A DNA stretch of 64,000 nucleotides from Acidobacteria bacterium 13_2_20CM_57_17 (GTDB lineage Bacteria; Acidobacteriota; Terriglobia; Acidiferrales; UBA7541), in assembly GCA_001914785.1 (NCBI GenBank), contig MNDE01000179.1, positions 1-64,000 of the forward strand, written 5' to 3'. Shown one piece after another: positions 44,439 through 50,106 of the stretch. The stretch's first letter is position 1. Each line of letters starts with the position of its first letter. The notes below the pieces were generated by a model. It saw nothing but the letters and a program-made list of their open reading frames with translations, was not told where the DNA came from and did no database searches. The position numbers were made by a program, and so were the translations under genes.

Positions 44439-44611
44439 GCCGGGAATAATTAGCGGGCCCCCGTGGTCTGCACAAACGAAACACGTCCCATATGCGGCGC
44501 GGGCTCCCTGGACTCTCTCACCCGCGCCGCCCTCCCAAGCAAATTGGCAGGAAAGGGCGACCGCGAATGGTAACGGATACGGGTGTCTTCAAATGCCCAG
44601 GAGGAAAAACG

Positions 44612-45580
44612 ATGGCGGGTACGGCGAAAGACGAAATCCAGTACGACCACAATCACGACGGGATCGACCGGCGCGGATTTCTGAAGTGCATGGCTTGGGC
44701 GGGCACAGGGGCTCTTTGTGTGATGAGCGGGGGCGTGCTGAAGTCGTACAGCCTCAGCCGGCTGCCGGAGATGAGTTCGAAGGAAACGATGGGCGAGTTG
44801 AGCTTTGTGCAGATCAGCGACAGCCACATGGGTTTCAATAAGCCGGCGAACCCAGACGTTGCAGGAACTCTGAAAGCCGCGGTGGTCAAGATCAACGCCC
44901 TATCAGCGGCGCCGGAATTCATGCTGCACACGGGGGACATCAGCCATCTCTCGAAGCCAGAGGAATTCGATACCGTTGACCAGATTCTGAAGAGTGCAAA
45001 GCCTCAGGATGTTTTCTATGTGCCCGGTGAGCATGACGTGCTGAACGACGATGGGAAGCAGTTCCTCGAACGCTATGGAAAAGGGAGCAAGGGCGGCGGT
45101 TGGTACAGTTTTGACAAGAAAGGCGCGCACTTTATTGGCCTCGTGAATGTGATGAATCTGAAGGCCGGAGGACTTGGCACGCTGGGCCACGAACAGCTCG
45201 AATGGCTGGAAGACGACGTAAAGCACTTGAAACACAGCACGCCTGTTGTGGTATTCGCGCACATTCCGCTGTGGTCGGTGTATCCGGAGTGGGGATGGGG
45301 TACGGAAGACAGCGCGCAGGCGCTGGCCTACCTGAAGAAGTTCGGCTCGGTGACGGTGCTCAACGGGCACATTCATCAGACGATGCAAAAGGTCGAAGGC
45401 AACGTCACGTTCCATACGGCGGCGTCGACGGCGTTTCCGCAACCGCAACCGGGCAAGGCGGATTCGCCAGGACCTATGAAAGTACCGGCGGAGCAACTCA
45501 AGAGCGTACTTGGAATCACGGATGTGAATTACGTTCAGGGGCAGCACGCGCTGGCGGTCGTCGATTCGACGCTTGCGTGA
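44612..45580 (+). CDS. Tat-exported calcineurin-like metallophosphoesterase
   Basis: 322 residues. Tat leader DRRGFLKCMAWAGTGALCVMSGG, then the phosphoesterase: FVQISDSHMGFN (first Asp and His), HTGDISHLS (second Asp), VPGEHDVL (the usual GNHD, here GEHD), VVFAHIPLW and VLNGHIHQ (two His). Asn in GNHD is normally a metal ligand; the Glu here is either a family trait or an altered metal site. It likely hydrolyses phospho-esters outside the inner membrane. AGGAGG lies seven bases before the ATG at 44612. Gene order downstream (cupredoxin, DUF2231, broken gene, DUF420) and the divergent sigma pair suggest one co-regulated envelope module. Confidence 0.87.
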   Translation: MAGTAKDEIQYDHNHDGIDRRGFLKCMAWAGTGALCVMSGGVLKSYSLSRLPEMSSKETMGELSFVQISDSHMGFNKPANPDVAGTLKAAVVKINALSAAPEFMLHTGDISHLSKPEEFDTVDQILKSAKPQDVFYVPGEHDVLNDDGKQFLERYGKGSKGGGWYSFDKKGAHFIGLVNVMNLKAGGLGTLGHEQLEWLEDDVKHLKHSTPVVVFAHIPLWSVYPEWGWGTEDSAQALAYLKKFGSVTVLNGHIHQTMQKVEGNVTFHTAASTAFPQPQPGKADSPGPMKVPAEQLKSVLGITDVNYVQGQHALAVVDSTLA

Positions 45581-45641
45581 ACGGAATGACCCAAAACTAA
45601 GAAACCAGTCAGACAACAAATCAATGGAAAGGAAGAGAAAC

Positions 45642-45998
45642 ATGAGGAGAAGTGTGTCTATTGCAGTTCTAACTATGACGCTGGTGGTCGGGCTGGGAGC
45701 GATCGGCATCGGCCAGAGGAGCGTTCTAGCAAGCGCTCAACAGAAAGCGGAAACGACAGAAGTGAAGATCGATAACTTCAGCTTTGGTCCGGGGACGCTG
45801 ACCGTTCCCGCGGGTACGACCGTAACGTGGACCAATCGCGATGACATTCCGCATACCGTGGTCAGCACAGACGGGGTCTTCAAATCCAAGGTGCTCGACA
45901 CGGACGAGAAGTTTTCCTTCACCTTCAGCAAAACGGGAACGTATCCGTACTTTTGCTCGATTCATCCGAAGATGACCGGCAAAGTCATCGTGCAGTGA
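45642..45998 (+). CDS. Cupredoxin-domain (plastocyanin-like) secreted protein
   Basis: 118 residues. Signal peptide (RRSVSIAVLTMTLVVGLGAIGIG) then a blue-copper fold: VKIDNFSFGPGTLTVPAGTTVTWTN, the first ligand His in DDIPHTVVS, and the Cys-His-Met set in YPYFCSIHPKMTGKVIV. All four ligands of a type 1 copper site are present. It should carry electrons or copper in the periplasm. ATG 45642 has GGAAGAG just before it and is preferred over ATG 45624. The preceding gene ends 61 nt upstream and the next begins 13 nt after the stop. Confidence 0.9.
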   Translation: MRRSVSIAVLTMTLVVGLGAIGIGQRSVLASAQQKAETTEVKIDNFSFGPGTLTVPAGTTVTWTNRDDIPHTVVSTDGVFKSKVLDTDEKFSFTFSKTGTYPYFCSIHPKMTGKVIVQ

Positions 45999-46011
45999 AC
46001 TGGGAGAAACC

Positions 46012-46461
46012 TTGCACCCTTTCGACATCAAAGCGGCGCTGCTCGCGAAACACGCGCAACACGTGGTCTTGATTCATTTTCCGATCGCCTTGTTCATCGT
46101 GGGCGTGGCGTTTGATTTTGCGGCGCAGTGGACGAAGCGCCAAATTCTGGCCGCGGCAGCCTATTGCAATTTGCTGGCTGCGGCAGTCGTCACGGTGCCG
46201 GTCTTGATCACAGGAATTCTCGCGTGGCAGTGGCAACTCGAAGGGCAACGGCTCAAAGGCATTCTCTTGATGCATTTGATCCTTGGGTGCGCTTCCGGCC
46301 TGCTGATCTGGATGGTGTTTTTTGTCCACCTGAGAGCGCGGGGGAGCCATGGAAGAGTTCTGCCTGGTTACCGCTTGCCCATCGAGGCGATCACGGTTGC
46401 GCTTGTGACACTGACGGGCCACCTCGGAGGGTTCCTGAGCGGCGTGAATGGACCAGGCTAA
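46012..46461 (+). CDS. DUF2231 family membrane protein
   Basis: 149 residues with about four hydrophobic helices: HPFDIKAALLAKHAQHVVLIHFPIALFIVGVAFDFAA at the start, AAAYCNLLAAAVVTVPVLITGILAW, LMHLILGCASGLLIWMVFFVHL, and LPIEAITVALVTLTGHLGGFL. HFPIAL and TGHLGG with conserved His are typical DUF2231 (predicted haem- or metal-associated membrane proteins). It starts with TTG at 46012 with GGGAG five bases upstream. Only 13 nt separate it from the cupredoxin gene, so they are co-transcribed. Confidence 0.85.
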   Translation: MHPFDIKAALLAKHAQHVVLIHFPIALFIVGVAFDFAAQWTKRQILAAAAYCNLLAAAVVTVPVLITGILAWQWQLEGQRLKGILLMHLILGCASGLLIWMVFFVHLRARGSHGRVLPGYRLPIEAITVALVTLTGHLGGFLSGVNGPG

Positions 46462-46492
46462 GTCGCCGGAAATACTATAGAAGCGGAGTAGA

Positions 46493-46953
46493 ATGGCAAT
46501 GAAACTGTTGTGCGGATTGATGGCCCTGGCCTGCGTGCCAGCGGGTCTAGCAGAAAATCGCGCGACACTTCCCAAAGAAAGGTTGCCGAGTTCGTGGCCG
46601 AGAAGTTAGATGTTACAACGCTTCCCGCCTCCATTCGGCCGAAACCGGAGAAGAGAAAGAAGACGTTCGGCGATTATGGCTACATGACCCAATTCGTCGA
46701 CGAGAGCCAAATACACGCCGAAGCGACGCCGGGCGGGACGCAAATTAATATCAGGATACTGGAAGAAGAGACGTCCGAAATTTACGTTTGCGTTGAAGGT
46801 GAGGGCCGAATGGAGAGCGGCCGTGTCCAGCGAGTGTTTCTGCTGAAACTGAAAAACGCGAACGGACTCTTGAAGGGTAGAGAGTCCTGGAAGGAATTCG
46901 ACGGCTGTCCGGTGATTGGCGGGGCCGACGGTGATTCTCCATCAGAGTACTAA
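46493..46953 (+). pseudogene. Frameshifted gene for a small secreted protein
   Basis: ATG 46493 (GGAG four bases upstream) opens a signal peptide, MAMKLLCGLMALACVPAGLA, continuing ENRATLPKER, and then meets TAG after 38 codons. A different frame (shift of 2) continues from there: KVAEFVAEKLDVTTLP, KRKKTFGDYGYMTQF, INIRILEEETSEIYVCV, VFLLKLKNANGLLKGRE, ending 46953. Neither frame alone has both a leader and a body, so a single indel near 46590 seems to have split it, or the assembly has an error there. I do not recognise the body. It lies inside the cupredoxin/DUF2231/DUF420 cluster. Confidence 0.6.
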
Positions 46954-47029
46954 GACTCGTCCTGAGGATCACAATTCCCACTCGAGCTGTCTTAAGCATC
47001 GACGGAACGACTAGCCCGGAGTAGCTCCC

Positions 47030-47485
47030 TTGAGCAAGAGTTTCCTAGGAACGGCGGCTCCCACTTATGCCGAACTGACTCTGGTCCTTGAAATTGCCAT
47101 GGGCGTGGGACTGCTCATTGGAGCTCAACTCGCGCGCCTGCGACGCTATCGGTGGCACGCATGGTGCCAGTCATTGATCGTGCTTCTCAATCTTGTCTTG
47201 ATCGCTCTGACGATGATTCCTGCGTTTCATCGCCAGGTACTCCCCAAACTCCCAAGCCGGATCGGAAAGCGCTACTACGCGCTCGCCGCAACGCATGCGG
47301 CGTTGGGCGGCGTTGCCGAGTTCGGAGGAATGTATATCTTGCTGGCAGCGGGAACGGAGATCCTTCCGAAGAAGGTCCGGATCAAACGCTACAAATTCTG
47401 GATGCGAAGTGTTCTTGTGGTTTGGTGGATGGTTCTTTTCCTCGGAATTGCAACCTACGCTCGCTGGTATATGATTTGGCGGTGA
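47030..47485 (+). CDS. DUF420-like membrane protein
   Basis: 151 residues with four hydrophobic segments: ELTLVLEIAMGVGLLIGAQLA, CQSLIVLLNLVLIALTMIPAF, HAALGGVAEFGGMYILLAAG, and FWMRSVLVVWWMVLFLGIATYARWYM. The layout and the conserved His in FHRQV and ATHAALG fit DUF420, a family associated with respiratory cytochrome oxidase (CtaM-like) or haem proteins. It starts with TTG at 47030, with GGAG eight bases upstream. It is the last gene of the cluster. Confidence 0.75.
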   Translation: MSKSFLGTAAPTYAELTLVLEIAMGVGLLIGAQLARLRRYRWHAWCQSLIVLLNLVLIALTMIPAFHRQVLPKLPSRIGKRYYALAATHAALGGVAEFGGMYILLAAGTEILPKKVRIKRYKFWMRSVLVVWWMVLFLGIATYARWYMIWR

Positions 47486-47669
47486 AAGATCAATTCCCAG
47501 GATAGGCCTCAAATCGCTGCTGGAAAGCTCCGAGGCTGGATTAGTACTATTAGCGGTTTTGGCTAAAACCCGCTTGCATCATATCCTTCTATCTTACTGA
47601 TAGTTGGATGTTTATCTCCGGCGTTGAGTTTGGTTTTTGGCTCTAAGTAGCCTTGATGTACTACTACTC
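47486..47669 (+). other. Intergenic region before the candidate RNA
   Basis: No gene seen. GCGGTTTT/AAAACCCGC forms a short stem near 47551-47571, and ATCC-TT-CTATC-TTACT-GATAG-TT-GGAT folds back at 47582-47606. A TTGAGT element (47624) has no convincing -10 partner, so the start point of the RNA that follows is not fixed. Confidence 0.45.
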
Positions 47670-47877
47670 AGGTACCCCATCGAGTGGCTCCAGTGACCCA
47701 TTGAGGCTCCCGCTCCAGGTGCGTAGTCTCCTAAGAACGGGTTGGGGGCCGCGCGGGGACAGCGACTTCGCAAGGAGTCGTGTGCGAGCTACCCAACCCG
47801 CCAAGTTTCGGTTTCCTGCTTCCCTCAAGCCACGGCATGTGATTTGGAGGGCCTGCAACCAGGCCCTCCTTTCTTTT
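47670..47877 (+). ncRNA. Candidate structured small RNA, 6S-like architecture (ssrS candidate)
   Basis: No gene frame fits, yet a strong terminator closes a region 360 nt past the last stop codon. Nested pairings give a long rod: GTGGC (47684) with GCCAC (47829), TTGAGG (47701) with CCTCAA (47823), then an open bubble of about 31/22 nt, then CGGGTTGGG (47738) with CCCAACCCG (47792), and a terminal CGACT/AGTCG hairpin (47763/47776). A rod with a large central bubble near 190 nt is the shape of 6S RNA, which sequesters RNA polymerase. Sequence motifs of 6S were not recognised, so the identity is inferred from shape. The 5' end is uncertain. Confidence 0.5.
47846..47877 (+). terminator. Strong intrinsic terminator of the candidate RNA
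   Basis: GGAGGGCCTG (47846-47855), loop CAAC, CAGGCCCTCC (47860-47869), then TTTCTTTT. The perfect 10-bp GC stem and T-run make it the clearest rho-independent terminator in the window. Confidence 0.88.
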
Positions 47878-47947
47878 AAGTTCGCCGGTATGGAACTTGC
47901 ATTCTAGAGGCGCCGTGGATACGCATATTTCCGTGAGCCTTCGTGGA

Positions 47948-48871
47948 ATGAATTACTTGAGAGGACTTGTGTTGCTGCGATCTGAAGGATTCGCGCGACA
48001 GGTGAAATCCATAGACAGCATTGCTGCGAAACTGATCTTTGTGGTGATGCTGGGCTTGATCCCGATGTCTACGAAGGTCGTGCAAGCCGGGGAACCCCCC
48101 ATCCCAAAATTGAAAACGGAAACTGAGGCAGCGTTTGAGCGCTACGTAAAACTGACGGAAGCACGAAATGAAGGTGAATTGAAGCGCGGCACTGGCCTGC
48201 TGTGGGTGGATGGACTCCCACCGGATCAACGGACAGCGGCCTACGCGGCGCTCAAACGTGGCGAAGTAGAGATGCAGAAACTGGAAATCCTCGATAACGG
48301 TAAGCCCATCGCTTGTCCGGGCGGCATGATTCATCACTGGAGCGGCGTGGTTTTCATTCCGGGAGCGAAACTCGAGGATGTCCTGGGCGTGCTCGAAAAT
48401 TACGACAAGCACTCCGTTTATTACGCGCCGGACGTCGAGCGATCGAAAATCGAATCGCGAAACGGCGATCATTTCAAGGTCTTTCTGCGGTTTCGGTGGC
48501 ACAAAGTGATCACCGCGGTGTTGAACGCTGAGCATGAAGTGCAGTACTTCCACGATGGGCCGAGCAAGGCACACAGCCGCAGTTCAGCGGTGCGCATTGC
48601 AGAAGTCGAAAACGCAGGGAAGAGCGATGAACGGGAAAAACCGCCTGGAGATGATGGCGGGTTCCTGTGGCGGATGGAAACGTGGTGGCGGATGGAAGAG
48701 CGCGACGGCGGAGTCTACGTGCAAAGCGAGGCGGCTTCGCTGACAAGAGACATTCCCACAGGGGTTGGCTGGATGATCAATCCCTTTGTGACGGGCATCC
48801 CGAAGGAAGCGCTGACGTTCACGCTGGAAGCTACGCGAAAAACAGTTGAAGCCCAGCGCTCCAGGCGCTGA
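47948..48871 (+). CDS. Hypothetical protein with START/SRPBCC-like pattern
   Basis: 307 residues from ATG 47948. A hydrophobic stretch (AAKLIFVVMLGLIPMSTKVV) near the start may be a signal sequence; the mature part has GLLWVDGLPPDQRTAAYAALK, MIHHWSGVVFIPGAKLEDVLG, YYAPDVERSKIESRNGDHFKV, a long strand set and a closing ALTFTLEATRKTVEA helix. The beta-rich middle with a C-terminal helix fits the START/SRPBCC helix-grip fold, a lipid- or small-ligand-binding pocket, though no family is firm. GTG 48002 would give a shorter leader; TTG 47897 a longer one. No strong ribosome-binding site decides it. It converges with the first glycosyltransferase. Confidence 0.65.
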   Translation: MNYLRGLVLLRSEGFARQVKSIDSIAAKLIFVVMLGLIPMSTKVVQAGEPPIPKLKTETEAAFERYVKLTEARNEGELKRGTGLLWVDGLPPDQRTAAYAALKRGEVEMQKLEILDNGKPIACPGGMIHHWSGVVFIPGAKLEDVLGVLENYDKHSVYYAPDVERSKIESRNGDHFKVFLRFRWHKVITAVLNAEHEVQYFHDGPSKAHSRSSAVRIAEVENAGKSDEREKPPGDDGGFLWRMETWWRMEERDGGVYVQSEAASLTRDIPTGVGWMINPFVTGIPKEALTFTLEATRKTVEAQRSRR

Positions 48872-48885
48872 TCTCAGGTTGTGTA

Positions 48886-50106
48886 CTATGGCTTCCGCGC
48901 GGAAGGCACGGCTTTTTTGCTGGCAGCATCTTTCAACAGGTCCCAGACGCCAGCGGCATTCGCGTCCCAGGTCCATTGGATGGCAGCCTTCGCGGCCGCT
49001 GAACCGACATTGTCTCGCAAGACTTCATCCGCATAAAGCCGGCCGAGCAACTTCGCGAGAGCCTGGAAATCCTCTGACCGCCTGAGAATGAAGCCGTCCA
49101 TTCCGTCGTGAATCAGTTCGGCAACGCCGGCATCCATGGAGGTAATGACAGGCAGGCCACAAGCCATGGCTTCCGCAACAGGCAAAGCGAAGGAATCTTC
49201 CCGGCTTGGACTGACGTAGAGATCAGCGGCCGAATAGAAATCCAGAACATCTTCGCGAGATGGCTCAAAACGGCAGCGCTCCGATATGCCCAGAGCGTTT
49301 GCCGTCTCAAGGAAAAAATCAGGGGAATCATCCCCAGCCGCAATCACGAGAATGGGGAGTTCTCGAAGGGCGCCGACGGCACGAAGAACGGTTTCAAGTC
49401 CTTTGACGCGCCAATCGTTTCCAATCAGGAGCAGCACAAGATCAGCTTTCTGAATTTTCCGCCTCAGGCGGGCTTCGTGACGTAGTGCGAGGCGTGCAGA
49501 AGGCGAAAACCGCGCCGTATCAACACCGTTGGGTATGACGCGCACATCTCGACGATGAAAGTAATCGTTTAGGAGAGTGGCTGTGCGTTGCGAAACGGCC
49601 GCGAGAGAAACTGCGGGGTCCGCATAGATGCGGCGTTCCAATCGCGCAAGAAGAGTGTAATAAGCGCGACGATGAAGCCTTCGAAGAAAACCGGGCTTTG
49701 CCAAATCGTGGACTTCTTCGTTGGCAAGTTCCTGGAGGCGACGAAAGAGCGCGTGGACAATAATGACATCGGCATCCAAACAGTTAATTCCGGGCGAAAC
49801 AACAACGTCGAAACGGAGTCCGTGGACCCAGCGGCCCCATGCGCGACAGATGGAATTCAGGATTAACCAGGCGGGAAATTGCAGGAGATGAGGACCGGGA
49901 ATGGAGGGAACTTTATGCCAGATGATCGCGCCGGATTCCTGCGCGCGTGGGACACGGGGTTGAACTACGGCAAGGCCATCAACGCGCTGGGCGTAGAGAT
50001 GAATCTCGGAATGCTCGTCGCTTGCGAGGCGCCCCAGCAATTCGGCAAGGGCGCGCTCCGTCCCATGACGGCGGTCAACGAAGGGTGAAACCACTGCTAG
50101 GCGCAA
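48886..50106 (-). CDS. GT4-type glycosyltransferase
   Basis: 406 residues. GT-B fold: RLAVVSPFVDRRHGTERALAELLGRL at the N-terminus, VIPNGVDTARFSP (linker), LVLLLIGNDWRVKGLETVLRAVGAL, then SREDSFALPVAEAMACGLPVITSMDAGVAEL, the EX7E-type nucleotide-sugar motif of family GT4. It should transfer a sugar in exopolysaccharide synthesis at the cytoplasmic membrane face. It starts with TTG at 50106, one nt after the ligase stop, so translation is probably coupled; no ribosome-binding site is visible. It is the last gene of the minus-strand polysaccharide operon seen here. Confidence 0.88.
   Translation of the reverse strand: MRLAVVSPFVDRRHGTERALAELLGRLASDEHSEIHLYAQRVDGLAVVQPRVPRAQESGAIIWHKVPSIPGPHLLQFPAWLILNSICRAWGRWVHGLRFDVVVSPGINCLDADVIIVHALFRRLQELANEEVHDLAKPGFLRRLHRRAYYTLLARLERRIYADPAVSLAAVSQRTATLLNDYFHRRDVRVIPNGVDTARFSPSARLALRHEARLRRKIQKADLVLLLIGNDWRVKGLETVLRAVGALRELPILVIAAGDDSPDFFLETANALGISERCRFEPSREDVLDFYSAADLYVSPSREDSFALPVAEAMACGLPVITSMDAGVAELIHDGMDGFILRRSEDFQALAKLLGRLYADEVLRDNVGSAAAKAAIQWTWDANAAGVWDLLKDAASKKAVPSARKP

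Follow-up and report, generated by a model that had tools for sequence, protein, structure and literature searches.

A new family of intergenic small RNAs with a conserved hairpin and promoter in soil Acidobacteria

The stretch of DNA analysed here, referred to below as the window, is 64,000 nucleotides long and corresponds to contig C108 of a 4.58-Mb, 78%-complete assembly, whose source genome is a Ca. Acidiferrum-like member of the Acidobacteriota. The loci that we gathered together with the downstream gene come from MAGs of Acidobacteriota subgroup 2, one of which is named Candidatus Acidiferrum typicum and placed in the order Ca. Acidiferrales, class Terriglobia. The RNA stretch is intergenic, lying between a DUF420-like gene on its 5' side (stop at 47485; so called from a sub-threshold Pfam match) and a 324-aa ORF that starts at 47897 on its 3' side, and its features are collected in Table 1. 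A row of genes for a calcineurin-like phosphoesterase, a cupredoxin and a DUF2231 membrane protein lies nearby, at 44492-46461. At gathering thresholds, Rfam annotated one tRNA in the window and nothing else, and a cmscan of 47450-47950 against all 4227 Rfam 15 families at E<=10 gave no credible match. Pattern searches of viral contigs and blastn searches of plasmids likewise returned no match.

Table 1. Coordinates of the features at the small RNA locus, in positions of the window
Feature	Position	Strand	Basis or remark
GTAC-N10-GTAC dyad (GTACTA...GTAC)	47658..47675	+	Both boxes almost unchanged across 36 genus copies; probable DNA site
Dyad TGnnnCnnnnGnnCCA	47685..47700	+	T, C, G and CCA columns invariant or nearly so in alignment A1
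-35 box TTGAGG, sigma70-type promoter	47701..47706	+	TTG in 57/60 copies
-10 box TAGTCT	47724..47729	+	xAnnnT in 60/60 copies
Predicted small RNA, about 142 nt	47736..47877	+	Start predicted from -10 box, end from terminator; fold z -3.44
Hairpin 1	47738..47800	+	Covariation in alignments A2 and A3; alignment-free check of apical stem; close copies
Hairpin 1, outer stem CGGGUUGGG/CCCAACCCG			
Hairpin 1, internal strand GCGGGGAC	47753-47760		Nearly invariant
Hairpin 1, apical stem with GNRA-type loop GCAA	47770-47773		
Pyrimidine-rich single-stranded tail UUUCGGUUUCCUGCUUCCCUC	47806..47826	+	Candidate pairing segment
Intrinsic terminator	47846..47869, T tail to 47877	+	Best of 46000-50000
Sigma54-like element GG-N10-GC, putative separate promoter of downstream gene	47886..47901	+	Read from sequence
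Downstream ORF, START-like look	47897..48871	+	Frequent, not obligate neighbour

Blastn with 47640-47880 recovered homologues from 33 of the 35 genus relatives, plus a single genome from a different genus, with up to 94% identity in a conserved core. Among the genus relatives, conservation of the stretch is well above chance, and this breadth and identity imply strong selection on it.

The most strongly supported structural element is hairpin 1. A sequence-only reading of the locus had proposed a set of nested stems, the inner two of which (47738/47792 and 47763/47776) belong to this hairpin. All 25 of its pairs are retained in 10/10 close copies, and 95% of cells still pair across 32 mostly divergent copies. 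In these 32 copies, double-sided changes occur at 17 of 26 pairs, compared to 5.1 in shuffled and 3-6 in slid controls; the observed values were reached by no shuffle, and 60 copies give the same picture. Since the 32- and 60-copy alignments were model-fitted, the apical stem was rechecked without an alignment, and a near-perfect helix was found directly after a conserved GGGGAC in 26 of 40 copies (0.8 in shuffled sequences), with 18 different 5' strands among these helices. In a plain MAFFT alignment of the hairpin (A5), the apical stems of different genera fall out of register, and the outer stem is all that RNAalifold recovers from it. This comparative evidence establishes hairpin 1 as a genuine RNA structure, with frequent G-U pairs in its apical stem. 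Over 40 divergent copies, the outer stem and the GCGGGGAC strand change very little. Pairing alone would leave the outer stem free to vary, and the constancy of both elements suggests that sequence as well as shape is recognised.

Immediately upstream lies a conserved promoter module. The -35 and -10 boxes are 17 bp apart in the window and 16-18 bp (mostly 17) apart in 60/60 copies, and the end of the -10 box lies 5-11 nt (mode 8) from hairpin 1 in the same copies. From the position of the -10 box, the predicted RNA start is 47736 or 47737, just before the hairpin. The GTAC-N10-GTAC dyad, with its centre near -70, is probably an activator site, and the TGnnnCnnnnGnnCCA dyad, with its centre near -44, would probably be another site of protein binding. 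Two genomes of a different genus carry the same module, lacking the hairpin, before an adenylate kinase gene (L105 2972-3039; L106 2977-3044), again with a -35/-10 pair at 17 bp and with the TGnnnCnnnnGnnCCA dyad columns kept, and we therefore regard the module as DNA and not as part of the RNA. This arrangement points to a probable shared regulon. In the genus genomes searched, the module was found once per RNA copy and never in a reversed-pattern control. We also considered the conserved 5' part as an RNA domain, with the GUAC/GUAC pairing drawn by RNAalifold; this was rejected because the pairs never covary, because the module occurs without the hairpin and because the -35/-10 boxes are present in 60/60 copies. 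Taken together, the cassette is almost certainly an RNA gene with its own promoter. Further conserved boxes were seen upstream in many genus copies, TAGTACTATTCGG at about 47553-47562 and TATCTTACTGATAATA at about 47580-47600, and these are perhaps more sites of the same regulator.

The earlier reading had joined the inner stems to outer ones in a rod with a large central bubble, and had expected covarying stems in aligned relatives and a transcript of 180-210 nt. Hairpin 1 does covary; the outer stems (47678-47698 / 47808-47839) are broken, and nine close relatives retain just 5-12 of the 16 pairs. The 5' arm of these stems precedes the predicted start site and falls within promoter DNA. The 208-nt stretch as first given folds weakly better than its shuffles (z -1.8), compared to z -3.44 for 47736-47877. 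Given the position of the 5' arm and this difference in z, the predicted transcript now runs from 47736 to about 47877, or about 140 nt. Its 3' end is placed at the terminator that the earlier reading had already picked out; this does exist, about 360 nt past the stop at 47485. Among the relatives, comparable terminators were seen in some close ones (L002, L003, L007, L008, L019 and L024), and in many copies the scan found no canonical terminator.

Between the hairpin and the terminator, the window's genus has an unpaired pyrimidine tail in which enrichment is modest: 29 of the 35 genus copies have [CU]CCC within 45 nt past hairpin 1 (20.7 in shuffles), and 2 have GGG[AG]. In other genera there is a clear exposed C-rich segment, and a second hairpin is found in 13 of 42 copies (1.55 in shuffles), with CCCC in nine of the 13 loops (for example UUCCCCCAGUUUUAACCCC in L096). 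When sought in the window's genus, this second C-loop hairpin was not above chance.

The distribution of the RNA was assessed with two covariance models, R1, which was built from 36 genus copies (alignment A1) and also picks up diverged copies in the family's other genera, and R2, which was built from 60 copies. With R2, the RNA was found in 70 of the 89 genomes of the family, covering 9 of its 13 genera, and nowhere else among 399 genomes of the class, and R1 matched the window's genome only among 396 genomes of the phylum; searches over more than 40 genomes use strict filters, which weak distant relatives could escape. Among the genomes sampled, the cassette thus appears restricted to one family of soil Acidobacteria, where it is mostly present as one copy per genome in a syntenic place. 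One genome of another genus carries a tandem pair of promoter and hairpin (L084 2941-3095 and 3114-3274). Incomplete copies were also seen, with two hairpins lacking the promoter (L022, L102) and one internal deletion (L062).

We favour, with confidence slightly better than even, a regulated, free-standing small RNA that would act in trans, its C-rich segment pairing with ribosome-binding sites and hairpin 1 serving as a stabiliser or protein handle. Transcription would start at about 47736 from the sigma70-type promoter, under an activator bound at the two upstream dyad sites, and the RNA would fold at once into the long, nearly invariant hairpin with its purine-rich internal loop. The C/U-rich segment would be left exposed, with other genera often using the C-rich loop of the second hairpin, and transcription would stop at the intrinsic terminator. 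We infer that the C-rich segment could then pair in trans with G-rich ribosome-binding sites, blocking translation or altering stability, while hairpin 1 may protect the 5' end or bind a protein. The antisense step, taken by itself, seems to us evenly balanced.

Two points speak against an antisense view. In the window's genus the C-rich second hairpin was not found and the unpaired tail shows modest enrichment, and conservation is much higher in hairpin 1 than in the tail, a pattern that a protein- or ligand-binding RNA would explain at least equally well. Hairpin 1 with GCGGGGAC might titrate or scaffold a protein, with the tail serving termination only. The near-invariance of GCGGGGAC and the outer stem over divergent copies, in which the tail drifts, and the small variation of an outer stem that pairing would leave free to vary are both consistent with this possibility; the recurrence of C-rich loops and tails in divergent genera argues against it, and no partner protein can be named. 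We consider it possible, if on balance doubtful. A version in which hairpin 1 with GCGGGGAC is a module binding a specific protein or small molecule, as a global regulator of the family and with a factor shared with the adenylate kinase gene, strikes us as unlikely.

A cis-acting leader, riboswitch or attenuator of the START-like gene is very improbable. No Pfam match was found for this gene, and its actual start is probably internal to the ORF. In most genus copies it lies 3' of the RNA in the same orientation, with the terminator in between, as such a leader would have it. In many copies, however, it is inverted (L025/L108; G024 among the genus genomes), about 2.2 kb away (L013/L107; G031 among the genus genomes), absent nearby (L017) or replaced by a convergent gene (L092, L094, L095, L098, L099 and L103). 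In other genera, the RNA usually lies 3' of a small carboxypeptidase-regulatory-like gene, and its own 3' neighbour is either the START-like gene or a long opposite-strand gene. A sigma54-like element also separates the RNA from the gene, with the consensus GGCAT-N5-CTTGCATCC before the START-like gene in the window and L002-L030; a stricter pattern occurs 3' of the RNA in 17 of 35 genus copies, compared to one on the opposite strand. Gene order and this element together exclude a leader function for many copies and make it unlikely for the rest, and with no consistent co-oriented placement the leader or riboswitch reading was rejected. The RNA gene, with a promoter of its own, is thus independent of its neighbours.

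Equally improbable is an element acting at the level of DNA, such as a recombination hairpin, a repeat or a protein site. The outer stem is nearly invariant in sequence, as such an element might be, and its half-sites GTTGGG/CCCAAC presumably resemble integron attC boxes. That resemblance is in letters only and the attC box order would be reversed; an integron-like DNA hairpin was rejected on these grounds. The cassette is also mostly single-copy and syntenic, its conserved promoter is aimed at the start of the hairpin, and the frequent G-U pairs of the apical stem are what an RNA would show.

The main proposal of the sequence-only reading, 6S RNA (RF00013), was rejected and is almost surely wrong. 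The two have in common a free-standing intergenic RNA gene of similar size, and for one sequence the predicted fold is rod-like; however, relatives do not keep the rod, whose 5' arm falls in promoter DNA, and the Rfam covariance model found no match in 47450-47950 at E<=10. The best RF00013 match in the same genome lies elsewhere, on another contig (G000:C15:2104-2327, or L031 1501-1724, - strand), with 42.5 bits against a cut-off of 46.4 and E 5e-7. Of the 36 genus genomes, 24 had an RF00013 match, which exceeded the gathering score in ten; annotation at the Rfam cut-off would miss the 6S matches of the other 14. The fallback offered by the same reading, an undescribed RNA, has held up, as no credible Rfam 15 match was found and a covarying hairpin with its own promoter recurs family-wide. 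A short coding gene can be dismissed as the earlier reading had done, since an 84-aa ORF is open over the stretch in the window but the three forward frames are open in just 10, 3 and 1 of 35 genus copies, and loop lengths vary freely between relatives.

As a candidate trans-acting small RNA, the present RNA may be compared to the C-rich small RNAs of Firmicutes (IsrR, FsrA and RsaE type). Staphylococcal IsrR has C-rich regions that pair with Shine-Dalgarno sequences, and its first stems are strongly conserved with little covariation (PMC9410917). Our RNA shares with them a free-standing gene under its own promoter and conserved stem-loops, and a terminator is found in the window and some relatives; an exposed C-rich stretch is clear in other genera, with a modestly enriched pyrimidine tail in the window's genus. 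It differs in belonging to another phylum, in having another hairpin and in showing no detected homology; Fur control and targets are traits of the Firmicutes RNAs. It also differs from Acido-1 and Acido-Lenti-1 (RF01686, RF01687), which were listed as non-cis-regulatory RNA candidates of Acidobacteria (PMC2864571), as neither model matches at E<=10 (cmscan, 47450-47950). One further motif survey aside, we found no description of the RNA in the literature or among the Acidobacteria motifs of PMC2864571. We conclude that it represents a new family of bacterial intergenic small RNA, absent from Rfam.

Acidobacteria are among the most abundant soil bacteria, and to our knowledge very few of their non-coding RNAs have been described. 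The present RNA persists across most genomes of an entire family, with promoter and hairpin conserved almost letter by letter, and the shared promoter module points to an undescribed regulator. A covariance model and a clearly predicted 5' end make it readily searchable in soil metatranscriptomes.
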